Source: Castanea sativa
Lineage: Eukaryota; Streptophyta; Magnoliopsida; Fagales; Fagaceae
NCBI RefSeq assembly: GCF_040712315.1
Contig: NC_134017.1
Span: 48,047,636 to 48,111,635 of the forward strand
Direction: 5' to 3'
DNA length: 64,000 nt
The position numbers and the translations under genes were made by a program. Below, piece after piece: positions 4,942-49,887 of this stretch (positions are counted from its first letter, which is position 1; each line of letters opens with the position of its first letter). The notes under the pieces are model-generated. The model ran no database searches and had not been told where the DNA came from. It worked only from the letters and a program-made list of their open reading frames with translations.

Positions 4942-5801
4942 CTAGTTTGGCGCGAATGCCTTTTGAAGATATTCAACTACATTCTTGTCTAGTTGGAAGG
5001 CCTTGATGAGAACATCAGGATTAATGGGAGGAACGGATCCAAAGACTGCGTTTGCTATGGTGATCACTCCAGGATTTTGGCTGCTGAGACCAGCAAAGGC
5101 AAGACCAATAGTCTCCCCTATGTTGAATTGGAAGTGAATGAGTCCAATTGGGAATACAAAGACATCTCCCTTGTTTAGAACTTTGGTGAAGAGTTTGTTT
5201 GGGTTGGATGTGACAAATCCAACTAAGAATGTACCCTCAATGACTACAAAGAGCTCAGTGCCACGAGGGTGAGTGTGAGGAGGATTCAGGCCATATTGTG
5301 CAAAGTCAAGGCGAGCCAAAGATATGCCTAGAGTGTTGAGACCTGGTAATTTATCGACGTTCACTAGAGTGACATTTGATCCGACTTTGTTTCCAGTGTT
5401 TCCGGGAATATTAAGTCCGGAGAAGAAAAAATCATTCGCTGAGACCATTGCAGGGTCCTTGCAAAATTTTCCATTCACGAACACTACACAAAGAAAGAAA
5501 AGTTAGTTATTGTTGCAAATAAGATGTTTGTGTAACAATGTACTGTAACATGTCATGTAGGGGGAAAAAACCGTTGGGGCATAATTTTATTAACGTAAGA
5601 ACTTATAATAAATTCAAAAGAACTTGATTGATAATACCACTACTGCTAATAATACTAAGAGTGTGTTTTATACATACCACCAGATTTGATGTCGTTAATT
5701 GCAACACAGAAGTCTTGCAAAGGACTAGGATCATAGGCAGAAACAAAGGAGGATGCCAAGGCCAAAATGGCCACAGTCGCAAGGAAAGAAACACCTTTCA
5801 T
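4942..5801 (-). CDS. Germin-like protein (secreted cupin), two exons
   Basis: Exon 1 is 5801-5678 and exon 2 is 5483-4942, with a GT..AG intron of 194 bases. The junction restores the frame and gives about 221 residues, the usual germin-like length. The first ~22 residues form a hydrophobic signal peptide ending near VSA, followed by the conserved N-terminal CVAIND. The cupin box A is [10 protein letters not shown], carrying two His and one Glu metal ligands. Box B is [10 protein letters not shown], carrying the last His. Germin-like proteins are apoplastic, Mn-binding hexamers; members show superoxide dismutase or, in true germins, oxalate oxidase activity, or act as wall proteins. Which activity applies here cannot be read from sequence. 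No break is seen and the gene looks functional. The start is supported by the signal peptide and by a TATA box about 85 bases upstream. Confidence 0.93.
5484..5677 (-). other. Intron of the germin-like gene
   Basis: The donor is G|GTATGT and the acceptor is TGTAG|TG on the minus strand. It interrupts the codon for Val at about residue 42, a position where many germin-like genes carry their single intron. Confidence 0.88.
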
Positions 5802-11907: not shown

Positions 11908-12480
11908 TTATCTGACAGTACAGGCAACTGCATAAGCCCAATACTTGAGATGCTCTTTCATGGCCACATTATCATCGAATGATGCCATCAGATTCTTATT
12001 TCGATGTTGATCCCCAAAACTCTGATTCTGATACCCACATGTTTCCTTAAACATTGAAAACATAGAAACTTCCTCCACATCAAGGCACAAATGAAGCTCT
12101 CCTAGAATCTTTCTACTCTGACTCAACCCTCTCTTGCTTCTTCTCCTTGTCTTCCTTCTCTCTTCCTTCTCAGCTGACATTTTGAGCTCGATCACTTCAT
12201 CTTCAACATGATTGGCCATCTGGAGTTCAATTTCATCAGCAAATTCACCACATTTGGTGCACATTGGGTCCAAATTCTCATCATTTGGCAACTCATCTGG
12301 CTGGTTTTGAAGGATTGGAGAAATGGGTTCGGATGATTCTTCTTTGGAAGACTCACCATTGACATGTTCTTGTGTGTCAATTCCATCACTGGCTGAATCC
12401 AAAGACTTGTTCTTTGATGCAACAATGTTGGTGAAGAACCAAAGAGAGTCTAAGCTCTCAATGACCCATGAACCATCCAT
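11908..12480 (-). CDS. Small plant protein of unknown function, promoter displaced by a MULE
   Basis: One uninterrupted frame of 190 codons begins MDGSWVIESLDSLWFFTN and ends HLKYWAYAVACTVR. The middle is acidic and Ser/Glu-rich, followed by a basic KTRRRSKRG patch that could act as a nuclear localisation signal. I recall plant hypothetical proteins with a similar WAYAVACTVR-like C-terminus but cannot name the family. The frame stays open 48 bases further upstream, but that extension runs through the 5' leader into the MULE end, so the ATG at 12,480 is the native start. A MULE target duplication sits at 12,506-12,514, so only about 25 bases of native leader remain before foreign DNA. Expression, if any, must now depend on the MULE terminal repeat. 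Confidence 0.7.
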   Translation of the reverse strand: MDGSWVIESLDSLWFFTNIVASKNKSLDSASDGIDTQEHVNGESSKEESSEPISPILQNQPDELPNDENLDPMCTKCGEFADEIELQMANHVEDEVIELKMSAEKEERRKTRRRSKRGLSQSRKILGELHLCLDVEEVSMFSMFKETCGYQNQSFGDQHRNKNLMASFDDNVAMKEHLKYWAYAVACTVR

Positions 12481-12505: not shown

Positions 12506-12514
12506 CAAACAAAA
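12506..12514. repeat. Left 9-bp target site duplication (CAAACAAAA)
   Basis: It is identical to 31,614-31,622. A 9-bp duplication is the hallmark of Mutator-superfamily transposition. Confidence 0.93.
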
Positions 12515-12722
12515 GGCAAAAATAGCAAATTAGCCCTTAGTTTCTAAGTATATAGTTAGCAGGCCCGGTTAGTAAAATATATAATTTACTAACATCTCGA
12601 GTCTTAGAGGCTCGATTTTGGCCCATAAATCGAGTCTTTGAGGCTCGGTTTTTGCAGGTTGATGTGGCCTTTTTTCCACGTGGCCTCCACCTAGAAATCG
12701 AGTCTCTAAGACTCGATTTATG
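12515..12722 (+). repeat. Left terminal inverted repeat of the large MULE
   Basis: It aligns base by base, with small differences, to the inverse of 31,406-31,613. The shared text includes the motifs TATATAGTTAGCAGG and AATTTACTAACATCTCGAG. It contains palindromic CGAG..CTCG modules. Confidence 0.9.
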
Positions 12723-12806
12723 TGACGTGGCCATTTGGGTATGATGTGGTTGATCCACGTGGCAAAACAGGAAACCGAGTCTTAGAGACTCGATTTCAAT
12801 TTGGGG
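12594..12806. repeat. Left sub-terminal palindromic modules
   Basis: There are four imperfect palindromes of about 24 bp with half sites of the type AATCGAG / CTCGATT, near 12,596, 12,629, 12,695 and 12,774. They are separated by ACGTGG-containing spacers. Regularly iterated palindromes in MULE ends are plausible transposase binding sites or promoter elements. Confidence 0.85.
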
Positions 12807-12829
12807 TTTTTTCAAACTTAACGCCTCTC

Positions 12830-13129
12830 ACACAAATACTCTCCCCTCTCTCTAACACAGCAGACTCTCACGCTCTCACTCTTCCTCTCACCCACCCTCA
12901 CTCTCACACACCGAACCTCACTCAGTCTCACTCGCTCACCCTCTCCACTCTCACTCAGTCTCCACCCTTTTCCTTCAATCTACGCGGTCTCTCAAAGCTA
13001 AAAAAAACGTGAGTGCTTTGTACAAAGTACAATGGGAAAAATATGAGAAAACCTTGATTGCGAAATCTGAGAAAACCTTGCTCTGCGCCTCCACTGCCTC
13101 CCTCTTGCTCACAGAGAACAACTTGTAAG
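12830..13129 (+). promoter_or_regulatory. Probable non-coding leader exon of the PMD gene
   Basis: A CT-rich stretch (12,830-12,990) follows the terminal repeat. A strong donor AAG|GTAAGTG ends the block at 13,129. The acceptor TTTTTGTGCAG ends at 14,481, two bases before the PMD ATG. This predicts a leader exon and a ~1.35-kb 5'-UTR intron, with transcription starting in or next to the terminal repeat. An alternative donor GTGAGT lies near 13,010. Confidence 0.5.
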
Positions 13130-13460
13130 GTAAGTGAATCTGGGTTTATTAGAATGGGTATTTTCTGTGTGTGTGTTTGGTTTGGGATTTTGGGTTTGCT
13201 TTGGCCGTGTTGGTATGCTTGTGAATTGAATTGATGTAGGCTATTGTTTATCATTTGCTTTGGCCGACGAGCTTCACTCTGGTGTACACACTCTTTCTAT
13301 TGTCACTAACACACCTCAACAAGCTGAAGCCAAAACCCAATACCCAATAAATAGTCAGTAGTTATATATTTCTCAACGTTATTATTTCCATTTCCATTTC
13401 CATTTCCATGTGACAGAGATTTTTACTTTTTTTTTTTAAACTGCTTTTGCTATTATTATG

Positions 13461-13930
13461 ATTGCTAAGAAAACTGTCTACTGTAAATAACTATATCCAG
13501 ATTTGTAATAGAAGAGGTATGATTTTAGCATGAACTGTTTTTGTTATTCAATTGTGCTATTGCTTATGAGTTATGGGGTGTGTTTGCATAAGCTGTTTTT
13601 TGAGTTTAAAGTGAGTGTATGTAAAAAAGGTACGAGGCGTTTGGGTTTTAAAAATGCTCTGTTAAGTTCTTAAAGTGCTTAACCATTGCTAAGAAAACTG
13701 TCTACATCAATACTATATCCAGATTTGTAATAGAAGAGGTATGATTTTAGCATGAACTGTTTTTGTTATTCAATTGCGCTATTGCTTATGAGTTATGGGG
13801 TGTGTTTGTATAAGCTGTGTTTTGAGTTTAAAGTGAGTGTATGTAAAAAAGGTACGAGGAGTTGTGGTTGCAATTCAGAGTTTTGGGTTTTAAAAATGCT
13901 CTTTTAAGCTCTTAAAGTGATTAACCAAAT
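13461..13930. repeat. Tandem duplication, period 224 bp, in the PMD 5' intron
   Basis: 13,461-13,684 is repeated from 13,685 with few differences. The second copy carries a short insertion (GTTGTGGTTGCAATTCAGAG). It lies wholly within the predicted 5'-UTR intron and so does not affect coding. Confidence 0.85.
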
Positions 13931-14482
13931 GGTCCCATGGTCTTTAGTTTTTATTGTTTTCGGATCCAATGCATGTTGCCTAAGAGGGTTTTGGACTTAA
14001 GTTTTTATTATTGTTGAAGTTGAACTAAACAACTCCATGTTTTAAGATCTTTGTTCGAGTGGTCTTGTACTTTTGCATCTAGTGATCTATTGTGGATTTT
14101 ATAAATTCACTTTCTTTTCGCTTGTGTTTCTCTTGTAAAATGTTAGGAGGGCTTTAAAGAGACTTCTTGTTGAGTGGCCTAGGGGATGAAAGGTAATTTC
14201 ATTAGGTGAATGGAGAGTGGAGACACAGTTAGCTCTACAACACAATTTAAGGAACATGGGATTGAGGGGGTTTTAGGCTTCGGAAGCTTGGATTTTTCAA
14301 TCAAGCTCTCTTGGGGAAATAGCTATGGCGTTATGCCATAGAATTAGTCCTTTTATGGATTAGGGTTGTGGGAGTAAATTTGGTGAGATAGGGATCAATG
14401 ATGTCTTGTTTAGTTATACCTACTTCCATAAGCATATTATGTGTTCATTTCTCAAACTAACTGCTTATCATTTTTGTGCAGT

Positions 14483-17346
14483 ATGGCTACTGCAAATGCT
14501 GGGCGGATTGACTATACAGAGCCTGGACCCATTGACAGGTCGGTGTTGTCAAAGCAGCTCAAGCATCGGTCCGAAGCTATTTGGAATGGGCAGGTAAAAC
14601 ATAACACTTAAGATTTAACTAATGTACATGCATTTAATTTATACAATGTACATGCATATGCCACCCATATATTAATCCATGGTTCTATTCTGTGCAGGAT
14701 CTAGGATCCGTTACCTGCCGTAGCCGTAGTTCAGAGTTCTCCAATAGAGAGCCAATGGTGGACAACCAAGTCAGGAACATCATCAAGGCAGTTGGTTTGG
14801 AGGGACTCCTTTGGGTCCCGGGTAGAGAGATTGACCATGGTCTGATAATTGCCTTAGTGGAGCGATGGCGGCCCGAGACTCACACCTTCCACATGCCACA
14901 TGGTGAGATCACCATCACATTGTAGGATGTGGAGGTTCTTCTCGGGCTTCCTGTTGATGGTGACGCTATAACAGGGAGCACGCAGAAAACTTAGGTGGAT
15001 GTGTGCCGGGACTTCCTTGGCTTTCGACCTATAAATCAAGACAACCATAAGCAACTTATTGGTCAGAGGATTCTCATCAACCAGCTTTTGGAGCAAGTTG
15101 CCGATCCATTGCCGCCTAATGTTGAAGAGGACCAGCTGCATAAGTACGCACGATGATACATCCTAGCGCTACTGGGGGACACAATATTCATGGACAAATC
15201 CGGCGATAGGGTGCATCTAATGTGGGTGCAACAGTTGGAAGACCTTCGTAACCCACGAAGGTACAGTTGGGGAAGTGCTTGCCTTGCATGGTTGTACCGA
15301 GAGCTATGCAGGGCAAGCGAGGACACCAGTCAGATTGGTGGGTGCTTACTGTTACTCCAGTATTGGGCATGGGCCAGGTTCTCCTATTTGTGCCCCGCAG
15401 TTGAGCATGGTCCGCCAGTGGGTGCTTATGGTCCTCCAGTGCGTGGTCCATTGTCCCTGAAGGAAGTCTTTACCTCATGCACGTCATATACATTATGCGA
15501 TCATTCCCTAAGCCTATAATAATGTAACTTGATTTTATTTATTTATTTTAAAGGCTTCTAGCAATTTTTTATGTCAACATTGCGTAAATTTCAATTAGAG
15601 GTTCAATATATATGATCACGTTAATATACTCTAATTTTGTGATTGTCATGTGGCTTGTATGTGCTTTGTTTTTTATAATCGAGTTTCTTATTCTATTGAT
15701 ATTATTAATTAAGTAAATATCTATAAGATGATCTCAGTAGTTATATGTGATTACATTATAGTTTTAACATTGGAATTATCTCTGTACGAAAGTTGTAGAT
15801 ATTGATCTATTGCAACTGATTGTAGGTGGTTGTGGGTCCCAAACAAGAAAAATAGGCCCGCCCACATCTTCAGGGACAGGTATCGCGAGCAAATAGCTTC
15901 AATGTTGCCAGGCCAGGTATGAAAATGCATTGTTTTACATGTTTAGGAACAAGATATAGGTTTGGTGAGCTTTGAAATATAAACATTGCTACCTAATGTG
16001 TTGTGTACTTGTTTTTTGGCTGTTGTAGGTGGTGTGGCAGCCATATGAAGCTGAGTTAGAGGACCTTCTGCCATGGTGCGTTGCAGGGAGGGCCGTGTGA
16101 ACGGCAACGGTGCCACTTGTATGTTTCCACCTAGTAGAAAAACATACACCGGATCGTGTCGTTCGTCAATTTGGGATGATCCAAGAAATTTCTCGCAATG
16201 TTGACACCGACACTGTGCTTCATGGCATTGATTTGAGGGAGAAATTCAGTGTTGATTGGATGCGAAAACATGTTGTGCATATCGATGAGTAGGGTAATCG
16301 CCTTCAACGGCGTTGTGAAGCAGTGCTTGGTGATATGCCTTCACAGCACGAGTACCACGACTGGTTCAAAAGGATAACTCGGAGGTTCATAGATAGGCCT
16401 GGTGCTATAGTGACTCTGCTGGTAACTTCTCAATGTCTTCTACATCTTACCATACTGAAATAGCATGAAACCACTGTTTAGATAACATGATAGTATCACA
16501 TTTTTTGCTTAGCACTTGGTCTCTCTATAATTTGCAATTATTACTAGCAGAACCAATTCTGAACCAACATTTATTTTATTATCGATTGGCATTGTTGATT
16601 TGGTATTGCATTAATAATATGTGTGGTTTTTCCATGTGCAGATTGAGGGATACGTCCGTTTTTTGAGGCGTCACCCAGTGGGCACGGAGGACCACAAGGA
16701 CATTACTGAGGTCCTGACGGCAGTGCATGCAATTGAACGTGTACAACCTCCTATTCCTGAGGCCACGAATGAGGAGGCACCTACTCCTACGGGCCCAAGC
16801 ACTACTAAGGGCCCAAGCACGAGCACAACCCCAGCCGGATGTCTCCCTCGTCCGCTTGTTGCTAGCCCTCGGGTTGTCCCTACCCCCGATCCTTCTTCAT
16901 CCACCCCACATCCATCCCCTACCCCCACCATTCCTTCACCCACCCCACATCCATCTCCTCGCCCCACCATACTGACACCCACTCCACATCCTTGTCCTGG
17001 GTCTGACATTTGTCCACCCACTCCACGGTCATTTCCTCAGCTGTTACCCATTCCATCCTTTGACCTGGGTATTGATCCAACTCCACCTGACATGCAGCAG
17101 GAGCCACCCTCCCACAGTACATCTACTGCCCTGTCTTCAGCCATCGACCTACCCCATGTTCAGGCTGAGCAGACTGTTGGGTTACCTGCAGTGGCAGAAG
17201 GTCGGCCGAAACGCATATCAAAGGCACCTCCTTGTGGGACAGAGGGGCACAAACATGGACACAATGCTGGGCTCGAGGCATCTGACGAAGGACATGCAAG
17301 ACCTCCTCCTCATTATACGAGACGGCATAAGATTCAAAAAAGGTAA
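14483..17346 (+). pseudogene. Plant mobile domain (MAIN-like, PMD) gene of the MULE, with five premature stops
   Basis: Predicted exons are 14,483-14,593, 14,698 to about 15,500 (exact donor unclear), 15,826-15,916, 16,029-16,421 and 16,642-17,346. Family signatures are [14 protein letters not shown], the VEVLLGLPVDG core, RYSWGSACLAWLYREL and LLQYWAWARFSYLCP. The tail is rich in Pro, Ser and Thr (repeats of PHPSPTPT) and ends in basic residues. Without the stops the protein would be about 690 residues. In-frame stops sit at 14,923 (TAG), 14,992 (TAG), 15,154 (TGA), 16,098 (TGA) and 16,290 (TAG). Context suggests one replaced Gln and four replaced Trp. No frameshift is seen. PMD proteins include Arabidopsis MAIN and MAIL1, nuclear proteins linked to silencing and gene expression, and PMD genes are known inside plant MULEs. 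Here it occupies the place mudrB has in MuDR. Confidence 0.88.
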
Positions 17347-18470
17347 CTCAAAGCTGAATGTGAAACAACACACTTTATAACTAGTGGGTAGAAATGTTTT
17401 CACATTTCAATCTACTATTGATTACTTCATGATATTATTATGGAGATCAATATGATTTTAACGTACATTTTTGGAAGTAGGTGATGGGAACGAGTACAGA
17501 GGGGGCCAAAATGACAGTGATGCAGGTGTAGAAGACGGTAAGCAACTACTCTGACTTTGGCGGTTAAATCAATGGCCATTGTCTGCTACTATGGTAAAGT
17601 CTTGGGCTGCCAAGCCTAAGTAACAATTGAGTTTGAGTCTTGAGAGTTGAGAGTAGCTGCTTAATGCATATGTCATGAATGGTTGGACCCGATTGAGAAG
17701 TATGTGCATGTTTTATCTCTAAGTTACCAACATCTTCAATTGAATTATTTGCTTTGCACATGAATCTGATCCTAAACCATGTTGCTTATGTACTCGCTGT
17801 ACGTGGTTGACACGTGGTATTTTTGCCAAGTTTTTTAGTTTTTACTTTTTCAGAGATTCTAAATCTAGGACATGGTTTGATTTGATGTTGGTGTTTGTAA
17901 AGGACTAGGATAGATATGTTTCAAATGCAACCCTGAAATTTTTGACTCATGAGCTGATGAGCGTACTTTCTCTGGTAATGATGTAGATTAACCACAAAAT
18001 AAAAAAAAAAGTAAATTTTTTTTTGTTGAGAAACACGTATATAATGGACACGTATATAATGGAGAGGATGAAATAAAAAAATACACTCACACGTCAATAC
18101 CACGATAATACTAAAACTGTATGCAGAATAAAAAAAAAAAATTTAAATATTTATTTATTTATTATGATGATGGTATTAAACTAATCATACCTCAATTTGT
18201 AAGTTTTTTAATAGATCTCCATTAAAAGTAGCTACAAGTCCATAAGCATTTTTCTTCCATAATTTACTTCACAGTGAAGCTAATACGAAAGGTTGATACC
18301 CATTTATGTTGTAGTGTTTCTTGTGTTGGGAGGTATCCTTGTTGAGTGATTGTTGAATAATGTAATCGTTTAAACGAATCCCTGTATTAAAGTTTTTTTT
18401 TTAATGAGTTATGTTTATGTAGAGTTTTTATTTGAATCTTTATGTGGATGACTGTAAGCATTGTTTGCAG
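17347..18470. other. MULE interior without a supported gene
   Basis: Near 17,482-17,538 a short open segment flanked by splice-like signals (AG|GTGATGG, GACG|GTAAGC) may be a last, alternative 3' exon of the PMD gene. Beyond it I see only AT-rich non-coding DNA. Confidence 0.35.
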
Positions 18471-18576
18471 CCTGATAGATCAGATGAACAGGCCAGAGTT
18501 GAAGCTACTGGGGGTGGAGTCATCTTTGTGAATGGAGCTCGAGTTGAAGGCATTCTTGCAATGTCCCGAGCAATAG
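18471..18576 (+). pseudogene. Captured single exon of a protein phosphatase 2C
   Basis: The 35-codon exon reads [15 protein letters not shown] then [16 protein letters not shown], the conserved PP2C segment around the LAMSRAIGD motif. It is bordered by TTTGCAG and GTAATA, intact splice sites. Group A (ABI1/AHG3-like) plant phosphatases look closest from memory. No neighbouring PP2C exon was found, so it is a fragment and cannot make an enzyme. Codons are uninterrupted, which suggests a recent capture or tolerance. Confidence 0.82.
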
Positions 18577-19831
18577 GTAATATTTTACACATTTAACCAA
18601 AGTATTTCCTTGTCAAATTACATTTACGACCACATGGTATTGGTATGACTCCTAAATGTTCTTATTGCATGATTACCATTTGTGGTTTTATAAGGTAACA
18701 TTTTAAGTTCAATTGAATGCGATTTTTCGTTTCTTATTTTTTTTAAGTGGTTCTAGCAAATGAAAATGCTTCTGAAACTATGGTTGTTTGTACACCATAT
18801 AAGTTAGCAACATGCATTGTCTTTATCATTTTCACAATGTATTCTCTTTTGACTTAATGATTGAATGCGTCTCTTGAAGGTTGTAGTAACAAACATATAG
18901 GGACTGCATTCCTTTTTTTTTTCTTTTTTTTTTCTGGTAAACCCTTTAAATTGTGAGGCACTCTGGTGAATTGAGAAGTCAGATGGGTTATGTCATTTTG
19001 TGTCAGTTTACATTAGGATTCAGCTATTTGTGCATCAAGCAGGTCAATCCTTGAAGTGGCCAAGTACAGAACTTCCAGTACAATGAAGTGGTTAGTCTGA
19101 TCTTGGCTTGCCTCTTGACTTACAACTGAAGTTGTCTTCCAAAAACCAGTATAACAAACTTTGCCATGGTGATCAATGGTAAACATTCTTAATTCATGTC
19201 TTGGTTTTTGAAGATGTTTCATCTCTCATGTTGAAAAAGGTTGAACAATAATGAACATCTTCTCGTATGTCCTTAGTGTAAAAAAGGTTCCTTGACGTTT
19301 TTAGGAAATTTAATATCATGCAATTATAATATGGACATGAAGCTTAGCTTGTCTGTCATTATACATTGGAATCTGAGTGGGAGATTCTTTTTCAATATAA
19401 AATTTACTTGAGCACCTATAAAGACAACAACCAAATCATGGGTCTTGTTTTATTTTTATGGGAGTTTGGTTATTTGGATTCTGACAGTAACATTTGAAGA
19501 GCTGAGTTGTCAAGATGTGACCTTGTTTAATAACTCACCGTGATCCATTATAGTGAAGAGGAACTAAAATGGCTTAACCATGACAGATGTGATTATGGAC
19601 TCTGCATGTTAAGCTTAAATGGCAGTAGGTGTTCATGGATAACTGAGAGAGATAAAGTAGCTGTTAGGTTATGTGAATGTAGTTTATGGTACTAAGCAGA
19701 GTTATTTGTTGATGTGTATATCAGTTTCTTATTTGTGTAGGATTGTTGTCTTCATATTATGTGGCTGCATCTGGGATAATGGCTAACATGTTTGAGTCAT
19801 TTTTGTATAGCTGAAAACCTCTAAGCTGAAG
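18577..19831. other. MULE interior, non-coding
   Basis: AT-rich, with no gene recognised. It may hold intron or flanking DNA that came with the PP2C exon or with the SEC22 exon to the right. Confidence 0.35.
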
Positions 19832-20014
19832 ATGGTGAAGCTAACTTTGATTGCCCGTGTAACTGATGGTCTTCCACTAGCAGAGGGTCTGGATGATGGC
19901 CGTGATTTAAAAGATGCTGAATTCTACAAACAGCAAGTGAAGGCTTTGTTTAAAAACCTATCAAGAGGTCAGAATGAGGCTTCAAGGATGTCAATTGAAA
20001 CTGGCCCTTACGTG
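19832..20014 (+). pseudogene. SEC22: Captured first exon of SEC22 (longin-domain R-SNARE)
   Basis: The segment reads MVKLTLIARVTDGLPLAEGL, then GRDL..AEFYKQQVKALFKNL and SRMSIETGPYV. This is a near-perfect match to the start of plant SEC22, the vesicle SNARE of ER-Golgi traffic. It covers only the first ~61 residues, part of the longin domain. The remaining longin domain, the SNARE helix and the membrane anchor are absent. No stop interrupts it. The following bases (NGIL...) look like an intron read-through or a novel sequence. Confidence 0.88.
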
Positions 20015-20629
20015 AATGGTATCCTTGTGAGATTTTTCATGTGTGTGTGTGTGTATGTATTTTCCCAGTATTACTTACAACTCAGATAGAAACAACAGTA
20101 TTATTTCTGTTACAATGAGTACGCAATCTGTTTATAGTTTAGAGAGTATTCAAACACAATGTGAAACCCAACTTGATTCAATCTACCCAAAACTGAAACC
20201 GCAATTGAATTGGGGTTGGCTTCAAACACAACGTGAAATTATGGAGATTTTATATCCATAATAGATGATTGTGAGATATTGAGTTCCTTGTAGGCGTTGT
20301 GGTCTAGTTAAAATTGTTCTATCATATTTACCTAACTAATGCAAGATTTGATGGGGATAGCAGCTTCAGTTTAGAAATTATGCTGTCTTTTTCAACATGT
20401 CTCTATGCTGAAGTACCCTACTTTTATATAAATATTTTCTGGGTTTCTTTTAAAATATACCTTTTTTTACTTGTTGGGTTCTATTAAAACAAGCATAGCT
20501 TTTTGACTCCTTCATTGTGCTAGAACCACTGTTGATTCAACCTTCTCTTCGTAAACAAGAGTTGGCATGTGAAGAAAAATAATGAGCTATTGTGTCTATT
20601 GGCAATACTAAAATTTTATAGTTTACAAT

Positions 20630-21870
20630 ATTAGCTTGGTTCATACAAGTATAAGAAAATATTTTGAATTATTGAACTAATGAATTAAGGAGGGGCATAC
20701 TATCTGCGGCAAGATTAATGTTACAGTGTCTTTTAGGTAGCATCCAAAGGTATTTCCTTTTCTAATGTCCCTATTGTTCTAAACTTGCTAATTTCTTCTT
20801 GCTTATGTGTTGCACTATAAATCCACAGACCATTTCCAATGATTTTGGGGTGTAATGAACTTGATTGTGCTGTTTGAAGAAGAGATTGCGAGTTGGTCGA
20901 TACTGATATACTGCACTAATAATTATGTTTAAGGATTTCTAGGTTGAGATTAGGCTTAAAGAATAGCTAAATATGGCTATAAACTCTAGAGAACAAATGC
21001 ACAAAGGATAGTAAGGAAGAAAAGGAAGAAGAAAAAAACAGCGTGGGTGAGAGAGAGATGAGACAAGATTGCCTCAGAATTAGAAGGAGGTCTTTTTTGG
21101 AGTTTTAGCTAGAGAATAATTACTAGAATATTTACTGTCAGTTGGGTGCAACCACTTAAAATTCTAATTATTGATGTTTTTAGCTGTTTGTCCATAACTT
21201 GCTTAAATGGAGATGACATCTGTATAGTGTTTTATTTTATTATATTTTTTTGCTACTGATGTTTTGGAAAATTTCTTTACCTCTTTATGCAGAGATATTT
21301 TGAAGTGCAAAGCTAATTTTTGAAAGGGTGCCAGCAGGAAACAAGGGACAATTGGTAAAAACATCTCGCATCCTAAGTATGTGATTAGCTTTTTGTTCTA
21401 TCTTTTTCTTATGATGAGAAACATCTCAGTTGATCTCATATGCAGAACCAATTGAGGGCTCTATAATTGTGAAGCAAGTCAGCTAATGAAGCATACGGAA
21501 ATCAAGGTTTTATATCTTACATAATCGTAGCTTGGTTCATAAGGTGTATAAGAAAATGAGTTGAAATTATAGAAGTAATGAACGATGAAGTTTATACAGG
21601 ACAAAAGCAAGGTTATAGTGTCTTTTAGACTCCATCCAAAGGTAGACCTTTTCTATCATCCTTAGAGTTGAAAACTTTGGGGATTTCTTCTTGGTCTGGT
21701 GTTGCATTAAAGATCCTTAAGTGTCCTTTTCCTATTAATTTGGGTCCTATAATAGTGATTATACTTTCAGAAGAAAGGTATGTCAGTTGGTCTAGAATGG
21801 CAGCAGGCATTGTTCTAGAGTAATAATCAGAAGTGTTAGGAATTTTAAAATTGAATTAGACTTAAGGAAT
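20630..21870. repeat. Diverged direct repeat of ~350 bp
   Basis: 20,630-20,975 and 21,524-21,870 share the same order of motifs (GCTTGGTTCATA, TATAAGAAAAT, GTGTCTTTTAG, CATCCAAAGGTA, TTTCTTCTTG, AGTTGGTC). They show many substitutions, so the duplication predates other events in the element. Confidence 0.7.
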
Positions 21871-21933
21871 ATATATGTGTGGTTAAAATTCTGCAGAGTG
21901 AAGCAAAATATATATGTGTGTGTGTGTGTGGGT

Positions 21934-21937
<4 letters not shown>

Positions 21938-21969
<32 letters not shown>
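21938..21969. repeat. GA microsatellite
   Basis: About sixteen GA units follow a short GT run (21,916-21,930). Confidence 0.95.
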
Positions 21970-24115
21970 ATTGCATATACGGAGAAAGAGATTGCATATA
22001 TGGAACTTATGACTTAGGTTTGTGGTCCTTCACTTTTGTCTTTGTTTGTTTCAACATGTTCCTTTGCTTTGGCCTGTTATGTCTATTTAGACATTATGTT
22101 GGAAAGATTTGTTTCGTATGTTCTGATGCTATCGGCTGTCACATATCTTTCGACTTGTGTCTCTGTATTTGTTCATTATCATATGTTTTTATTTTGTGGC
22201 TAGTTTTCCTCCTTACGCTCTAAAGTCCTTCAGTTTGAGATCATCTTGAGCTTTAGTCTACAGTTAGTAATCTTAACACTGATACAGGTATCTCCAAATA
22301 TTGTAGGTAATTTTAGCTTTACAGAAGAGATTACAGTGAAATCTGCTGGAGTTGCTGCCATGAATATTGTGTCCAAGAAATTGAAGAAGAAACATAACAT
22401 CACTAGCATGAAGCTGCATAAACATGGGCTGATGCTATAAATGGCTGGGCGTTCCTTGCCATGCATTCGAGTGCAAGATATGCACATTGTGTTACAAACA
22501 TGTAAGCATGAATTACAATTTCTTACTCAATTTACTTAGATATTGTATACATGTTGGCCAATGAGTTATGTCATTTATCTTTCTAATGCTTCACTTTCCC
22601 TTCTTTTCCCAGATGGTCGAGAGAGTAGAAAAATATGAACATATATGTTGAGCCACGCGTGCGAGAGGAACAATTGAACAGAGTCATCTTACTTCAACTT
22701 CGTACAAACTTGGAAAGATGGTGAGCAGTGAAATTTTTGTAATTGGAAGATGTTCAACAACTACTACTGACTCAATTGTTCCATGTGTAATTCAATATAC
22801 ATACTTTCTCCACTTCTCATTTAAATTGTTCAATCCATGTTTTTTTTTTTTCAAAATTTTTTTCTTTAAATAGATTTTTAACCATTGCCCTAAGGGCATC
22901 CGTTAACATTTTTGTTTAAAATTTTAAAAATAAATTAATATTGTCCAAGTCTTATCACTCTGTTAAGCCACGTAGGATATATAAACTAACGGACATAGAT
23001 AGAAGCTTGAAAAATAGAACATTTTGCAAAGTTTTAGGGAGGAAAATTGAACACTCTTTTGCTGTGACTGGGTCCAAACCAACTTTCTCTTGAGCAATTA
23101 ACCTTCAATCCAATTTTGCAAAAAGCAATTTTCCTTTTCATGGCTCTAACTATTTGTTTGAAAACAACTTATCTAGCATTTTTTGCTGAAAGTATGCACA
23201 GGAAAGTAATAAAATAAAAATAAAAACAAATAGATTATAGAGGCAATTAAAGTTGATCTTACAGGATGTTTTGCGCTGTACAACCACTGATTAGTAAAAT
23301 ATTGTTCTTTGTTAATTGCATCAAACTATAATTATGTCTTGTAAAATCTTTGTTTAAACACAAATGAAAGACTCCATTATTCATTATTGCTAGCACCTTT
23401 TATTCAAAGCTGCCCATTTTTTTATGTTTATGTACTGAATTTTTCCTCACATGAATTATAGGGATTTTGATGGTAAATTATGATTAAATACAACATGCCA
23501 ATTATTCATTATGAAGTTCTTTTGTATATATTGAGAAAAATCTTTGTTTCCTCTGGCCTGATTTGCAATGCCATGTGTAGGATTGTTGGGGTTGGCACAA
23601 ATCCTCAATAGGGAAGTCGAAGTTAGCTTCATGATTGAATTAGCAAAGTTAAAATCTTTATTGGGATGTACATGCCTTTCACATGTTTGAATTATAAGTA
23701 GACATGGGGGGTTTGTTTGTGGGTAAATGCATGCGGGGTAGAAAGTCAATTGAAACCAGCTCTGTGATTTTGGAGGGAGTTACAGTACCAAGAAACATTG
23801 TTCAAAAAATAAAAAAGTATCCTCACATTACCATGCGTCTCTTGAAATATGCATTGAACTGTTAATTAAACAAGAGTTTACATCACTAAAAAAAAAAGTC
23901 TTAAAGTGATTGTCTTTCTGCCCAATTTTACCTAACTAATATGAACAATGGAACATGATTAATTGCCTTGTTTAGTGCTTCATGTTAGATTTAAAAATGT
24001 ACGCACTCTTCATTTTTGTAGGACAATAGCACATACAGATTTGAAGCTAGAATTGTCCCTCCATCCCTAATAAACTTTGAAAATAGGCAACCAACTATTT
24101 GATAACTCTTCAAGA

Positions 24116-24431
24116 TGCCTTAAGACAGTTAACCACAAAATCAGCTCTATATATTGAAAGTGGTTCAAGTCTCCAATGACTATATGTCCATAAACTCACA
24201 TCATAACCCACACCACCAGATAAAATCAATGATTGGGTAGAAATGTTGTTGATTTCGTCATTTTATGGAGGTTCATATGGCGGCCGGTTTTCAAGTTCTG
24301 CTTCAGCAGCAGTGAGATTCTCTTTAGCTTTAATGATTCTTTCTTGACGAGATTCTTCTTGCTTCCTCAGGTCTTCCATTTCTTTATATTTTTCCCTCGT
24401 ACTTGCACCCCCTATAGAAAATGTAAATGAA
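24116..24431 (-). repeat. Left arm of a ~315-bp inverted repeat, with a coiled-coil gene fragment
   Basis: Its reverse complement matches 25,468-25,780 almost throughout. Read on the minus strand it gives a coiled-coil segment (EMEDLRKQEESRQERIIKAK, then AAEAELENRPPYEPP) followed by a stop. The sequence resembles C-terminal regions of GMI1/DMS3-type chromatin proteins, but this is a memory-based guess. Arm and gene fragment are in better condition here than in the right arm. Confidence 0.8.
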
Positions 24432-24582
24432 TGGAAACCTGAGGATTTAGGATTTCAAGAGTGATACTGTCATTGAAAGAAGCTAGAGACTATCTTTCTC
24501 TTGAATTTCACAGCCAAGTGCCTGACATAGTGGCCTACATGAAAACCTTGCTGGAAACTGAAATCATATCGTGTCACTTTAG

Positions 24583-25034
24583 GTGCTACAAAGACACATT
24601 CAATCAAAGTTGCCCAGGTCTGGTTTCATATTTCTAAAAAAAAATTATTCATTTCCAAATGAAGCTAAATTTTTATGAAATAGAATTGATTGATTCTCCG
24701 TACCCTGGTCTCTCTTTTTTTGTCTCTCCCAGTGGATGCTCCAAATGTAATGGTGCAATTGGTTACATTGGCTCCATTGGAAATGAGAAGTTTGGAGAGG
24801 AGATGACAAAAAATTAAAAATCAGCGGGTGTTAATGTGAGTTTCTCTTCGTCTTAGACTTACAACTGAACGTTGGTTATGTCTTCACCTTCTTCCTCATG
24901 TTAAGACAATTATGAAAATTGTAATTAGGTACATTATTACAAGGATGAATCTACATCAACTGGAACCTGTGCTGTTTGTGTGGTTGGTGGTCAGAGGTCA
25001 GTTCATATGTCTGCACGTAATCTCGAAATGCAAG
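24583..25034 (+). pseudogene. ADK: Captured adenosine kinase fragment (three exons with introns)
   Basis: Three exon-like segments with splice sites occur in order: 24,583-24,617 (GATKTHSIKVAQ), 24,733-24,835 (WMLQ, then after a frame change GAIGYIGSIGNEKFGEE) and 24,929-25,034 (VHYYKDESTSTGTCAVCVVG). They match consecutive exons of plant adenosine kinase, the PfkB-family enzyme that phosphorylates adenosine to AMP. A frameshift after WMLQ and an in-frame TAA near the end of the second segment show decay. Catalytic C-terminal exons are missing. Retained introns indicate capture at DNA level. Confidence 0.85.
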
Positions 25035-25467
25035 GTCAGTTCTATCTTATAACTTTGATTGCTCGGTTTCATGATCTCGAAAAATTGTATCTCCTTCATT
25101 ATAATGGGACTTGTGTTCTCTATAATAGCTGATGATTATCAGGTACACATCTTATATTTATGGAATTATGAGAAATATATTTGTCTATTATGACTTTGGT
25201 GTTAGATGTTGGAACATTTACAGTGTTCAATTCTAATCTGCAGGAAATTGGAGTTTTAGTCACAATATTTTTTGCCTGTTCCATGCTTGCGTTGGCCTGA
25301 TTTTACCTTCACTGGCGAAATTAAGGACAACGTATGTTAAAGTAAGTTTTCTATCTTACAACTTTTGAAGAGTCAGCTATAAATTTTGTCAAGAAAGAAT
25401 CTCCTGTGGTGCCTCGTAGCTGTACGTTTCTTGTCACACGATTGTATTTATTCTTAGGTTTGGAGGT

Positions 25468-25780
25468 TCATTTACATTTTGTATAGGGGGTGCAAGTACG
25501 AGGGAAAAATATAACGAAATGGAAGACTTGAGGAGCAAGCAGAATCTTGTCAAGAAAGAATCATTAAGCTAAAGAGAATCTCGCTGCTGCTGAAGCAGAA
25601 CTTGAAAACCGGCCACCATATAAACCTCCATAAAATGACAAAATCAGCAACATTTCTACCCAATGATTGATTTTATCTGGCGGTGTGGGTTATGATGTGA
25701 GTTTATGGACATATAGTCGTTCGAGACTTGAACCACTTTCAATATATGGAGTTGATTTTGTGGTTAACTGTCTTCAGGCA
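25468..25780 (+). repeat. Right arm of the inverted repeat with a decayed coiled-coil fragment
   Basis: It is the inverse of 24,116-24,431. The coding remnant (STREKYNEMEDLRSKQ...) has an indel and stops relative to the left arm. The two arms enclose the adenosine kinase fragment, so a transcript of this part would fold into a long double-stranded stem. Confidence 0.85.
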
Positions 25781-26331
25781 TTGTAAAAAAGATATGAAAT
25801 AGTTTTTTTTGCTATCATAAAATGTATTGGTGTACCTATAAAATAAACTGTGATCTTGTTGTTGTATTGGTGCAAGAGTCCCCAATGGACTACATTGTAT
25901 GTATAGGTATTCTATTTGCAACTGTAAAGTCTGGAAACTAAACTAATGGTCATTATGTTAATGGTCAGATATTTAGATTTTATGTTGTAACTTCTTCAGT
26001 TAAATCAATCTTCAATCCAATTCAAGTACTTAACTTAGGCCACCTAATCCAACGCAACCCTTTATTTATACAAAAATCTAATTTCTTTTGTTGATAAGCC
26101 ATGTACAAGAGGAAAAAATTTATATTTTTGAAACAGTGTCATAACTCTATTTTAGATGTGTTTCATAGTTTTGTTATTTATCTGAAATTAATTATCAAAT
26201 TTAGGAACTAAACTATTTAATTTATGTCTTTGAAACTAAACTACAAATTGTCCAGAAATTTGAAATTAAACACCCTCTATTTTAGATTAATTTTAGAGTT
26301 TTGTTATTTATCTGAAATTAGTTATCAAATG
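25781..26331. other. MULE interior, AT-rich
   Basis: No gene. A ~60-bp phrase (AGTTTTGTTATTTATCTGAA) occurs near 26,168 and 26,291 as an imperfect tandem copy. Confidence 0.5.
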
Positions 26332-26714
26332 TAGAAATCGAGCCTTTGAAACTCAATTTTTAATGTGGAAATCGAGTTTCAAAGGCTCGATTTGATTTCA
26401 GTAGCTTTTTAAATCAAGTTTTAAAAACTCGATTTTCATTGAAAATCGAGTTTCAAAGACTTGATTTACATTCGTGTACCACCAAATATAAATCGAGTTT
26501 CATAGACTCGATTTACATTGAAAATCGAGTTTCATAGACTCGGTTTACATTGAAAATCGAGTTTCAAAGCCTCGATTTATATTGAAAATCAAGTTTCAAG
26601 GACTCGATTTTTAGTTTAGTGGTTTTTTTAAAAAATAACATCCCGTGGAAATGCCGCCTTTGAAACATTTTTTAAGCAAAGGAAATCGAGTTTCAAACAC
26701 TCGATTTCCACTGG
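26332..26714. repeat. Internal array of nine terminal-type palindromes
   Basis: Nine imperfect palindromes of 24-26 bp share the half sites AATCGAG and CTCGATT of the MULE ends. They are spaced about 30 bp over most of the array. They lie 0.5 kb beyond the 3' end of mudrA, in the middle of the element. This could be the buried end of an older or nested MULE of the same family, or an internal binding array. Confidence 0.88.
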
Positions 26715-27246
26715 GATTTAGTTTTTTTTTTTTTTTTTTTTTTTTTTGCAGCTACTGCAGCAATAAACCAGAATTAGTTTTTCCCTTTCCCTACAGTAGT
26801 AAACAACTAGATACAACCAATCAAAGGGAGAGTAGTACATCAGAAACAAACAACCGAATTAAAACAGTTACTATTCATTGCTGGCTACGCAAAAGCTGCA
26901 CAATGCAACTAATGTAACGAGTACAATGGATAGCAAATAGTTCAATTACAACAACATTCAGCAATAAAAAAAATATAAAAAATAACAACTAACTAAAATT
27001 AACATAGTCTACATTCGGCAACAACATTCAACAATAAAAAAAAAAAAAAACACTTGTAGATAACCACAGCATTCAGCACTTGTCCATACAGAAGATAACC
27101 ACAAGTCCCACGTACATTGCCAAAACTTCAATCGAGTCTCCGCTCGCCTGACAAACATGAAAATACAATCGTTAGTTTCCAAATACGAAGAACAAAAACC
27201 AAATGAAATTCATAGCATATTATATAAAAACAGTGAGAGCACTTGC
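26715..27246. other. mudrA 3' flank
   Basis: It holds a T-run (26,728-26,748) and A-rich stretches, and likely contains the 3' UTR of mudrA. No gene. Confidence 0.45.
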
Positions 27247-30200
27247 CTAGTTTGTAGCACTACCACTTGTCGAAGCCCCACGGGAATTGGGACAGCTTCT
27301 ACGGTTATGCCCCTCTTGATGACACACTCCACATCGCTGCCTCAGTTGAATCTCCCTCAAGTCCGGATCTTCCCTCCGGCTTCCCCGTTCTCGCCGTACC
27401 CCATCCATTTCATTCCTTATTCTTGAGGCCACAGGACGACCTTTGGCCCGCAACAGCTGTGGGTCAGGCACCCACCGTGGTCCGCGAACGTCCCTTCACA
27501 ATAACTCTGACTTTGGCACTACAAAATTATGTGAATATGTCTGAATGGCGTTGTTCAAACTGTAACATGGGTCAATATAGCTGGTCGCATCGAGGTGCAG
27601 ACCTTGAAGAACTTTAATTGCGTGTGAACAAGGGATCTTCAAGTTTTGCTACTTTCCGCAACCACATATTCTATCAAATACCTGTACTTCATGACTGTGG
27701 TTTCCCCCTCCACCTCTATGGTCGTTGTACGGGGTAAGCACTTGATATACACCAGTTTCATGATTAAAATTCCTCACAGTGTGACCTGCAGTTTTCTGCG
27801 CATTTTTGTTATAGATCTCCATTGCATAATCACTCCACACCTTACCTTGAGAGAGATCTTCCGTAATTTTTTTATGTCGATCGTGGAAATATGCAACAAG
27901 TTTGGACCAAGTGAACTTAACCATTGCCGCAATAGGCAAACCGTGGGCACCTTTAAGTACCCCATTAAAGCACTCAGAGATATTGGTTGTCATTGCCCCG
28001 TAACGTCTTCCACCATCATGTGACTGGGTCCATTTGTCCAGATCCTCACTGATTAAATATATGTATGGCATACAGCGTGCAACATGGCGATCAGTAGGAT
28101 CTACACCCCTCAGTAAATTAATCTCGGCCTCCTTAATGATTTGCATTATGGATTCAAATTTAGCTTCATGGGTCGCATATCTAGCTTTCAAGGCCAATGC
28201 CTTTAGAATCGGGTCATCAAAGCGTCTGTTGAAGTTGCTAGCAACATGTCGAAGGCAATATCGGTGATATACTTGTTCTGTTCCGTCCCTCCATCTAGGC
28301 AACTGTCGAATGACATTTTTTATACCTTTATGTCGGTCAGAAATAATGCAAATGCCATTGGCAGGTGTAACATGCTCAATCGAAGCCCTGAGACACTCTA
28401 AAAACCACCCCCAACTAGCCTCTGACTCCTTGTCCACAACAGCAAAGGCAAGAGGCAAAACCTTTTGATTGGCATCGGTTGCCATTGCAATCATCAAAAC
28501 CCCTTTGTATTTACCATACAAATGAGTCCCATCAATATTGATCACTGGCCTACAATATTGGAATGCAGCAATGCATGGAGCAAATGCCCAATATACATAG
28601 CGTAGTAACGCAGAATTCTCGTATGGCCTAGGTATGGTGTGATAGTTGTACTGGGTACCCGAATCCTGATCCAAGTATGCCAACAACAACTTTCGCAACC
28701 TTTGGTAAGACTCCTCCCAATCCCCAAATATCTTAGCAATTGCCTTTTGTTTTGCGTCCCATACTTTATAGTAAGAAAGCTCATGTTTATACTTAGTACG
28801 TATGATGTCCCAGAGATCTTGTATACGAGCAGTGTGATTTTGTCGCAATTTTCTCACAATTTCTGATGCAACAAAATTAGAGTCCATCATTTTATCGTCT
28901 CTTCGCAGGCCAAAGGGTATACAAGTGTGTGGACCCACATAAGACGTGACCATCCATAAACCATTAAGTTTAACCTTCATGAATGCCCCAACGTACCACT
29001 TGCAGCTGTCATCAACGCATGCAGCACACAATTTACTTTTGGTGGACCTCCGGATTATAAAATTTCTATTATCATTTGCTGCGTATATTATCAATGCACG
29101 CTTCACCGCCTCCTTATTTGCAAAAGTCAACCCTTTATGAAAATGCATCCCATCTTCCCAAGTAGAAACAAATGGTATCTGAAGACGTGAAGGATCAACC
29201 ATATTTTCCTAAGTATTTGCGTAAAATGAGTCGGCAGGAGGTCTGTAGGCAATGGTCGTATTTGTATCATGCTGGATGCCAATATCATCGTCTGCATCAC
29301 CTTCATCATGGTACTTCATATTTTCCTCTTCAAAATTGGGAACGACTTCATGGTCATCCATATCGTTCTCAAAGTCGCCTCACTCAATCCTGTCTTCGTA
29401 TTCATCCACGTCATCAATATTTTCACCATCATTCGCAGCATGATCTTCGTCTTCGTCTTCCTCCTCTAAATGTGTTTCTTGAGGATGGAGGGATTCACCA
29501 GTATTGGCAATATGATCTTGAGATGAGAGCGTATAACCTCCCATTGTAGTACATCCATCATCTAGGGCTGTAAATTGTAAAGCCGTAGTTGTTTGTTGCA
29601 CCACCTCAGTATCAACTTCTACAAGCGGCTCCGAACTTACGTACAACTCAGCAGCATTTATTTGGGGCATTTTTTGGATCCTATTAAACATCATCTTTAC
29701 ATGTTTGTCTTCTTTGATCGCCATATACCCGTAATTTATTCGTTCACGAAGGACTTCTTGTGGGTAACGATAAATAATCTTGATGTCATACCAAGCAGGG
29801 TTCAAATTCAATGAGTGCATTATTTTCCTCTTCAAATCATCCAACGTCTTCAACTTACAACATATCATCATGTAGTAGCATTCAATACCCGGTCCTCTAA
29901 ATGGGAATCCGTCAATCTCTCTAGGATTGTCAAGGGGTCCACCATAATATACATTTATATTAATATTCGTTAGAGATTGTGAACCTATTAGAGAGTAAAG
30001 TATAATATGTTAGTGACATATTTTATCTATTTTATTTAACATCAATTACAAAACCTTGAATATCTACTCAAAGTACAAAAATTACAACTTCTCACCCCAC
30101 AATTGCATATACTCACCCCACATCACATACAAACACACTCAATCATTATCATTTCGTACTCAAACAAATAAAAAAACTAAAGACAAAACTCACCCCCATT

Positions 30201-30913
30201 ACAAAATTTCGACTCAGTTCTAACAAAAATATAAATAAAAATATCAAACCAAACAACAAAAGTCATGAGGATGTGCAAATGAATGAGTGTAATTTGATCA
30301 TGAGCAATCAAAATTAGACATATCATCTAATTTCAAAATCAAGGCATTAATATACAGTTAAATATACCAGATGTGATATACAAACTCAAATTTAATACAA
30401 ATTATGGAGAAAATGAAGCAGATAAATTCACCGAAAGCTAGCAAAAAGACTTCCTAGATCATGAATAAAAAATATATATATATATCTTTCTCCTCACTTT
30501 CTAAAATATATATATATATATTTATATAAATATATATAAATATAAATATATATGTAAATATATATAAATATAAATATAAATATAAATATAAATGTAAATA
30601 TATATATATATATATAAATATAAATATAAATGTAAATATATATATATATATATAAATATAAATATATATGTAAATATATATATATATATATATAAATATA
30701 TATGTAAATATATATATATATATATGTATGTAAATATATATATATATATATGTATGTAAATATATATTAAAAATATTTTATATATAGTGGTTAATACAAA
30801 GAAATAACAAATAATTAGGAAATGTCATGACAATTCAATGCAAGCAACACTTTCTAAAGCACTTATATACACTAAACAACCAACTAGAGAGTGAGGAGAC
30901 CCTTACCTGACAT
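27247..30913 (-). pseudogene. mudrA: mudrA-type MULE transposase, two exons, four premature stops
   Basis: A seven-base coding exon (30,913-30,907, MS plus one base) splices with CAG|GTAAGG to an acceptor AATAG at 29,985. The frame then runs to 27,247 without a shift, for 914 residues. Domains in order: N-terminal MuDR region (VYYGGPLDNP), acidic linker, DNA-binding region with CAAC..C near residues 290-340, and the MULE transposase core. The core's catalytic Asp lies in INIDGTHLYG (about 487), the second Asp in ISDRHKGI (552) and the Glu in NISECFNGVLK (673). A SWIM zinc region (CGCGK..CSHA) and a C-terminal zinc knuckle CGVCHQEGHNRRSC follow. Stops occur at codons 204 (TGA), 261 (TAG), 781 (TAG) and 832 (TGA), the last two clearly replacing Trp. 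The catalytic triad lies in one open 517-codon block, but no full protein can be made. Confidence 0.92.
30470..30785. repeat. AT-rich satellite-like block (TATATA / ATAAAT)
   Basis: Runs of TA are interspersed with ATAAAT and TATGTAAA units over about 300 bp, in the predicted 5' intron of mudrA. It is probably slippage-prone. Confidence 0.92.
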
Positions 30914-31060
30914 GAGGATGTGCAAATATGCTACTAGGATTGTATGAGAGTGAAGAGAGGAGCAATGTCTGTGTGAGAGTTGAGAGAGGAGCAATATTTG
31001 CTGAATGTGTATGAGATGGTTTTGCTGAATGTGTGAGAGAGAAGCAATGTTTGCTTTTCT
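30907..31060 (-). promoter_or_regulatory. Probable leader exon of mudrA
   Basis: On the minus strand this is a CT-rich block ending in ATGTCAG|GTAAGG. It mirrors the CT-rich leader of the PMD gene at the other end. Transcription from the right terminal repeat inward is inferred. Confidence 0.5.
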
Positions 31061-31278
31061 GTACAGTTCTTTTTTTTAAGATTCCTGAGACCATGCTACA
31101 TTGACTTATCTAGACCATGCTTTCTTTTTCTGAAGATTCACGAGATACTTATTCAGACTAGACCACTACACTGACTTAGACCATGCTTTCTTTTTCTGAA
31201 CATTCACAAGACATTTATTCAGCCAAGACACTGACTTATCCAGATGGAAGTGACAGATGGGACTTAAGCAAGGGGAAA

Positions 31279-31535
31279 GACCCCACTTAAAAATCGAGTT
31301 TCTGAGACTCGGTTTCCATTTTAGTAAACCGAGTCTCTAAAACTCGAGATCTAAGTGGCGTCTACGTGGACTCACCGGTAGGAATCGAGTCTCTACTGCT
31401 CGGTATAAAACTCGAGTCTTAGAGACTCGATTTTCAGGTGGACGCCACCTAGAAAAAATGCCACATCAAACTCCAAAATTGAGACTCAAAGACTCGATTT
31501 TTAGGCTCAAAATCAAGCCTCTAAGACTCGAGATG
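31279..31535. repeat. Right sub-terminal palindromic modules
   Basis: Six imperfect palindromes with CGAG/CTCG half sites lie near 31,291, 31,325, 31,381, 31,411, 31,478 and 31,508. They correspond to those at the left end. Confidence 0.85.
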
Positions 31536-31613
31536 TTAGTAAATTATATAGTTTCAAAACCGGACCTGCTAACTATATAGTTGAAAACTAAGGGTTAATT
31601 TACTATTTTCCCC
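31406..31613 (-). repeat. Right terminal inverted repeat of the large MULE
   Basis: It is the inverse of 12,515-12,722, followed directly by the second CAAACAAAA duplication at 31,614-31,622. Confidence 0.9.
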
Positions 31614-31622
31614 CAAACAAAA
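31614..31622. repeat. Right 9-bp target site duplication (CAAACAAAA)
   Basis: It is identical to 12,506-12,514 at the other end of the MULE. Confidence 0.93.
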
Positions 31623-49764: not shown

Positions 49765-49878
49765 TGATATCTCTACAAAAAGCTTTTGAGGTGGAGAAAG
49801 TGTTTGGGAAATAGAAGACAGACTGTTTAGTTCAGAAATATTGGGTGTTTGAGAGACAGAGAGGGCCAAAATATTAGG

Positions 49879-49887
49879 ATTTTATAG
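49879..49887 (-). promoter_or_regulatory. TATA box of array member B
   Basis: The minus strand reads CTATAAAAT, about 115 bases upstream of the ATG. The same segment precedes member C. Confidence 0.65.

Follow-up and report, generated by a model that had tools for sequence, protein, structure and literature searches.

The element and its ends

The stretch of DNA analysed here (the window, 64,000 nt; C5:48,047,636-48,111,635) comes from the chestnut Castanea sativa and harbours a 19-kb Mutator-like element (MULE). All coordinates are positions in the window, unless a chromosome is named (C2, C5, etc.). From left to right, the element consists of a terminal inverted repeat (TIR), a gene with a plant mobile domain (PMD), cargo that includes pieces of host genes, an array of palindromes, a transposase gene convergent with the first one, and the second TIR. 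Its features are given below, with the basis for each in brackets.

12506..12514, no strand: left target-site duplication, CAAACAAAA (read from the sequence)
12515..31613, no strand: whole element, 19,099 bp (ends, duplication, second full copy at C2:21363674-21383456)
12515..12811, plus strand: left TIR with 4 palindromes (end alignment; 40 other long genome matches among the best 40 of 1227 candidates)
14483..17343, plus strand: PMD gene (Pfam PF10536 in two exons, gene model, homologues)
17790..19430, plus strand: captured PP2C gene fragment in two blocks, 17790-18685 and 18679-19430, with an exon at 18465-18581 (Pfam PP2C, PDB PP2C matches, source locus)
19426..20424, plus strand: captured 5' part of a SEC22 gene, coding sequence 19832-20017 and intron (SEC22b matches, source locus)
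20422..22534, plus strand: fragment of a C7 locus, without a gene name (source locus, comparison with the C2 copy)
22535..26130, no strand: cargo block common in part to many family copies (repeat comparison, cargo matches in the family)
26335..26710, no strand: internal array of 9 palindromes between cargo and transposase gene (repeat comparison, palindrome count)
27250..30009, minus strand: Mutator-like transposase gene (Pfam MULE match, homologues)
31276..31613, minus strand: right TIR with 6 palindromes (end alignment, palindrome count, genome search)
31614..31622, no strand: right target-site duplication, CAAACAAAA (read from the sequence)

The original prediction, made from the sequence of the window, had described a perfect 9-bp duplication at both ends and an inverse alignment of the ends over about 205 bp, and both have been borne out. 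The word CAAACAAAA directly abuts the element on each side (12,506-12,514 and 31,614-31,622), a third occurrence being located at 63,661, far beyond the element, and the probability that two random 9-mers drawn from the window are identical is 2.7e-5. Positions 12,519-12,719 match 31,609-31,409 in inverse orientation with 87% identity over 202 bp, and an additional inner match of 42-47 bp exists between both ends. A target duplication of 9 bp (8-11 bp expected), long TIRs and a transposase with the MULE domain place the element in the Mutator superfamily. Both TIRs also contain 17-bp palindromes of the CGAGT...ACTCG type (CGAGTCTTAGAGACTCG). Allowing up to four mismatches, 19 such sites are present in the 64 kb: four in the left TIR, six in the right TIR, nine in the array at 26,339-26,703, and none elsewhere, as compared with 0-2 sites in each of five shuffled windows. 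In the five copies of the element that have been fully read, every palindrome belongs either to the ends or to a single internal cluster, except for one additional site in the copy on C4. An Rfam scan of the whole window gave no match.

The resemblance between TIR material and the internal array at 26.3-26.7 kb might suggest two adjacent MULEs, one carrying the PMD gene on the left and the other the transposase on the right, whose outer ends would share a duplication by chance or as a result of joint movement. In fact, comparisons that include the palindromes score 46-54, vs. at most 42 in 200 shuffles. However, the outer TIR is not found at the array once the palindromes are removed, with 7-45% of 1000 shuffles scoring as well; a complete inner element at this position has been rejected for this reason. 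In addition, the array occupies an internal position in each of the five copies compared, the convergent two-gene layout recurs in 21 of 22 neighbouring gene pairs, a 9-bp match by chance has a probability of only about 3e-5, and the copy on C2 described next is largely incompatible with two separate elements. A pair of adjacent MULEs is thus extremely improbable.

That the 19.1 kb constitute a single insertion, as had been proposed, agrees with the existence of a second full copy on C2 (C2:21,363,674-21,383,456; 19,783 bp). It shares with the element of the window the ends, the two genes and the larger part of the cargo, and is flanked on both sides by a 9-bp duplication of its own (CCTTGCCTC). 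The proposal would have failed if the genome held no other copy with these ends as a unit, and the C2 copy shows that this is not so. Its identity with the window is 97.5% in the left TIR, 95.4% in the PMD part, 98.1% and 97.7% in the cargo (17,601-20,424 and 22,533-26,130, respectively), and 95.5-95.9% in the transposase part. Since the two sites show different 9-bp duplications, the unit has therefore transposed whole.

The prediction of two element genes and host gene fragments inside these boundaries has also held, the PMD and transposase genes and the PP2C and SEC22 pieces being present there. The PMD gene reads inward from the left end, and its exon model (approximately 14483-14593, 14698-15471, 15827-15916, 16029-16421, and 16642-17343) contains five in-frame stops. 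The transposase gene reads inward from the right end as one frame without frameshift, interrupted by four in-frame stops (29382, 29211, 27651, and 27498); its PF10551 match has an E value of 9.8e-18 (64.9 bits vs. a cut-off of 27.6), and DBD_Tnp_Mut falls slightly under the cut-off. The two genes are convergent and separate, and none of 240 homologues among the matches listed joins PF10536 and PF10551 in one protein. Comparison of the nine stops with aligned homologues (12 and 16) places six of them at tryptophan positions, one at glutamine, one at a position that is mostly cysteine, and one at a variable position. The tryptophan and glutamine codons at seven of these positions are one transition away from a stop, which would fit cytosine deamination in a silenced element.

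A family of large copies

The original prediction called for a genome search for copies sharing these ends, and 17 elements of 15-28 kb have been found besides that of the window, the C2 copy included. Two points had escaped it: large copies are common in the chestnut family, and the cargo is confined to one slot. The TIR searches gave 1,227 (left) and 1,223 (right) first-look candidates, the best 40 of each being scored, and the pairing used 41 of 52 left TIR matches, 40 of 99 right ones (short partial matches were dropped), 39 of 137 cargo matches, and 25 of 40 transposase matches. This resulted in 27 distinct elements, 18 of them of 15.3-27.9 kb (that of the window included) and nine of 2.6-11.5 kb. 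Thirteen of the 41 left matches could not be paired with any right end listed, one of them being the second TIR of the C4 element; these unpaired matches say little, because each search scored just the best 40 of its approximately 1,220 candidates.

The ends have been read for 20 further pairs (14 large and 6 small), two small paired elements lying outside these readings. By the looser rule, a perfect 9-bp duplication flanks 13 of the 20 pairs, including 11 of the 14 large ones. Two more large elements become perfect when the left end is set at GGAGAAAATGG, which brings the large ones to 13 of 14 perfect and one with a single mismatch. In the six small pairs, the duplication is perfect in two cases, has one mismatch in another, and is absent by this rule from three (2, 2, and 4 mismatches in the strict script). 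As for the four large elements beyond the 14, the duplication is perfect in the copies of the window and of C2; the other two are considered below together with the points that weigh against our interpretation. Two further observations concern the termini: the terminal sequences of the family fall into two main variants, of the GGCGAAAATAGCAAATTA and GGAGAAAATAGCAAAATA types, and the TIRs are duplicated in tandem at one end of two copies (C5:59818218-59818834 and C4:47191545-47192219).

The gene content of these elements is shared as well. Among the 18 large elements, 16 contain a match to the PMD gene and 11 a match to the transposase (the best 40 matches in each case); two of those counted without transposase, the C2 and C5 copies, do contain it by direct comparison. 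The cargo of the window is partly present in 11 of the 17 other large elements, as judged from 39 of 137 cargo matches, and by direct comparison also in the C4 copy. Among the best 40 PMD matches, 22 have a listed transposase match within 40 kb, and the two genes are convergent in 21 of these 22, separated by 2.1-3.5 kb in three cases and by 8.1-19.8 kb in 18. All the best 40 PMD matches but the window's own (39 of 40) are 93-97% identical to its exon, and in a tree of 50 PMD sequences, in which neither Arabidopsis nor Gypsy PMD was included, the window copy groups with Castanea.

The cargo slot

The slot between the PMD gene and the array can be recognised in a cargo-free copy of 11.5 kb (C2:32,329,361-32,340,890), where the PMD end (window 17,545) runs directly into the palindrome array and transposase gene. 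This copy bears the GCCATCAAC duplication on both sides, and may be originally empty or secondarily emptied. In the window, 4,693 bp of the cargo have been matched to three distant loci (on C10, C5, and C7), two of which are recognisable host genes. The PP2C fragment derives from C10:35,932,616-35,929,532, with 90% and 97% identity for its two blocks and an internal deletion of 1.47 kb relative to the source. The SEC22 piece derives from C5:2,178,554-2,179,554 (92.7%), 46 Mb from the window, where later SEC22 exons follow by eye. Because introns are included in both the PP2C and SEC22 pieces, DNA and not message was copied. The third piece has its source at C7:5,396,702-5,398,733 (95 and 92% identity). 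For the remaining block (22535..26130), which contains an adenosine kinase-like fragment at approximately 24929-25036, no source locus was identified among the matches scored in the genome cargo search. Other cargo, in the C4 and C5 copies, resembles by eye what we take to be acetyl-CoA carboxylase and SRP72.

Several side observations can be added on these sequences. A piece 96% identical to the PP2C cargo lies at C9:44327539-44328091, about 10 kb outside the C9 copy of the family and in opposite orientation, and a second locus similar to the SEC22 cargo (C5:2161748-2162754, 88%) is found 17 kb from the source locus. Another example is a pair of inverted arms of about 354 bp (24093-24446 and 25450-25804; 91% identical) that is present in the cargo of many copies; a transcript of these arms could form a hairpin and feed small RNAs.

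Comparison between copies suggests how the slot has changed. The copy on C9 tracks the PP2C source unbroken for 1.63 kb, across the 1.47-kb jump that is seen in the window and C2 copies, and the 7-bp word TTTGTGG is common to both sides of the deletion junction. The C2 copy tracks the SEC22 source for about 0.9 kb past the junction of the window at 20,424 and then contains other sequence up to 22,533, 2.77 kb in total; in the window, 2.11 kb of the C7 locus occupy this place. The longer SEC22 piece of the C2 copy therefore indicates that the lineage of the window has lost SEC22 sequence and acquired C7 sequence; in the same way, the longer PP2C and SEC22 pieces of the sister copies imply that the window copy has lost cargo.

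A different reading would be that an ordinary MULE of about 11 kb was enlarged by later nested transposons rather than by captured gene DNA. A cargo-free form of 11.5 kb does exist, the C4 copy has several internal direct repeats, the block at 22.5-26.1 kb is without an identified source, and no gene has been assigned to the C7 locus. However, 4.7 kb of the cargo match three distant loci, with introns in the case of PP2C and SEC22, and the C2 copy has moved with most of the cargo inside. Furthermore, Pfam scans of part of the cargo frames revealed no transposon family, and nothing convincing in further frames, and the direct repeats within the element (a 245-bp tandem pair and a 70% pair at 20.6/21.5 kb) are not LTR-like (LTR, long terminal repeat). 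Growth by nesting is accordingly quite improbable.

We are highly confident that the element of the window is a degenerate representative of a Mutator-superfamily transposon with two genes, which has moved as a unit and belongs to a many-copy chestnut family with changing host cargo. The transposase of an intact relative would bind the palindrome-rich ends, move the whole unit, and insert it with a 9-bp stagger. Cargo might be gained or swapped through the repair of internal breaks by copying other loci, with interrupted gap repair and template switching, and deleted by means of short homologies, while the window copy would be silenced, methylated, and decaying via cytosine deamination. Several points weigh against this interpretation. 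In the C2 copy, the right TIR is just 87% identical to that of the window, with a gap, and the right-hand duplication lies 4 bp beyond the expected end. In the family, the C4 copy is without a duplication, and the C5 copy at 59.8 Mb has lost its right terminus; 18 of the 40 PMD matches have no transposase neighbour among the matches listed; and a stricter duplication script finds only 10 of the 20 further pairs perfect and two with one mismatch, a lower count explained by misplacement of the left end in five copies that have other terminal letters. The larger copies may include nested insertions. As for the cargo, clean homology (7 bp) is seen at one of the three junctions for which both sources are known, and about 0-3 bp at the others by reading, the overlaps of the blocks at the three source junctions being 7, 5, and 3 bp; end joining may account for the cargo instead of gap repair, itself a proposed route only. 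Cargo assembled from host fragments by end joining, or brought in by small Pack-MULEs or Helitrons, would agree with the little homology read at two of these three junctions. On the other hand, no ends of small elements have been recognised at the junctions read, and the C7 piece replaces SEC22-side sequence, as fits a filled gap, so that such non-templated origins appear possible but unlikely.

Relation to known elements, the PMD gene, and surroundings

The chestnut element is several times larger than MuDR of maize. It shares with MuDR/Mu the long TIRs, the 9-bp duplication, a MULE transposase, and two oppositely transcribed genes (PMC9168764), and differs in that its second gene encodes a PMD protein and not mudrB, host cargo lies between the genes, and an internal palindrome array is present. 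As in Pack-MULEs, fragments of host genes are captured within a MULE (PP2C and SEC22, from sources on C10 and C5). However, Pack-MULEs are non-autonomous and without transposase (PMC4858842), and those of Jiang 2004 are at most 7 kb long (PMC6431247), whereas the chestnut family has both element genes and large copies of 15-28 kb; the element of the window is not a Pack-MULE because of its transposase gene at 27,250-30,009. PMD-C genes have been captured twice by MULEs as transposase fusions, in grasses and in Amborella, and a use against silencing has been speculated (PMC5418596). The chestnut element likewise contains PF10536 within a MULE, but its PMD gene is separate from and convergent with the transposase gene, and the host is a eudicot, a group in which PMD-C has been described as mainly genic (PMC7156037). 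Another example is Abermu, with a transposase gene, an oppositely oriented second gene in some members, and a 9-bp duplication, and with sizes of 8.2 kb in Hvu_Abermu and about 15.4 kb, by listed coordinates, in a Bdi member; neither PMD nor cargo of named host genes appears in the sections of its description that were considered (PMC9168764). Finally, the tandem TIRs of some chestnut copies (C5, C4) recall the MULEs with multiple TIRs (PMC3310237), although in the window copy the TIRs are single and palindromes form an array inside the element. MULE sizes, definitions, and context are found in PMC3903597, PMC13317346, and PMC8616336. Searches of the literature, made mostly with general queries that test absence weakly, returned nothing on such elements in Fagaceae, including PMD with Castanea. 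As compared with known MULEs, the size class, the separate PMD gene, and the cargo slot with its turnover are new.

The PMD gene might be a passenger without any role for the element, in agreement with the stops in both genes of the window copy and with the proposal, in the Abermu report, that the reverse gene is possibly unimportant for transposition (PMC9168764). Against this, 16 of the 18 large elements enclose a PMD match, and 39 of the best 40 matches, all but the window's own, retain 93-97% identity to the exon of the window, so that a mere passenger is possible but less probable than not. A protein with a role could, speculatively, aid the escape of the element from silencing, and the family would then offer a natural case for the idea that PMD proteins borne by MULEs counter silencing, as raised in PMC5418596.

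A further Pfam domain has been found in 17 of the best 120 PMD homologues listed. Among 18 homologues that were scanned for domains, selected mostly for an extra one, 14 show the PMD followed by a host-protein domain, one has host sequence before the PMD, and three have none. These host domains are proteasome, glutamate synthase, P5C reductase, Cu/Zn SOD, acyl-ACP thioesterase, MGS, aminopeptidase, AAA lid, ALIX, RdRP, RING, NAP, CHCH, and NOG1, seven of the 14 being clearly partial; the PMD part of P0182 was assigned by BLAST, that of P0184 does not reach the Pfam cut-off, and the ALIX match narrowly misses its own. All 14 proteins come from Quercus, Castanea, or Lithocarpus and are scattered over the PMD tree. 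The PMD stands first in 14 of 15 cases, which matches the prediction from the layout of the element. These proteins are gene predictions, and fusion by annotation is possible. The pattern is less marked among transposase homologues: of two with extra domains that were scanned, one has the domain before the transposase and the other after it. The neighbourhood of PMD and transposase, as read from Lithocarpus locus numbers, was too weak to be retained.

Tentatively, and at rather less than even chances, it can be imagined that giant two-gene MULEs of Fagaceae took up PMD independently of those of grasses and Amborella, that the PMD shields them from silencing and so permits growth to 15-28 kb, with a cargo bay in which pieces of host genes are acquired, shortened and exchanged from copy to copy, and that cargo spliced onto the PMD message gives rise to new PMD-host fusion proteins. 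In oak and chestnut, genes annotated as PMD-host fusions may be transposon cargo. Captured gene pieces in MULEs have been described mostly from small Pack-MULEs that lack transposase. The chestnut family keeps apparent intermediates, namely an empty form, one captured gene at different lengths, and a copy in which cargo was swapped; with these and the source loci in the same genome, the acquisition of host DNA by MULEs becomes directly testable.

With regard to the surroundings, an open frame next to the left end (11911..12480, minus strand; read from the sequence) is probably a host gene, although a Pfam scan of this frame gave no match. Since 25 bp separate its first ATG from the duplication, the element would sit in the 5' region of that gene. 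Gene-like segments duplicated in tandem extend over 42233-54109 on the minus strand, with frames of 107-506 aa and no Pfam match above cut-off, and one of them contains a 189-bp internal repeat (49217-49728). A direct repeat of about 0.88 kb (56049-56907 and 58872-59753; 86%, 2 kb apart) could represent the LTRs of a short element. A 291-aa open frame (62587-63459) is Gypsy gag-like by eye, with no Pfam match. Finally, a cupin gene is located at 4945-5502 (Cupin_1, E 2.2e-52), germin-like by eye.

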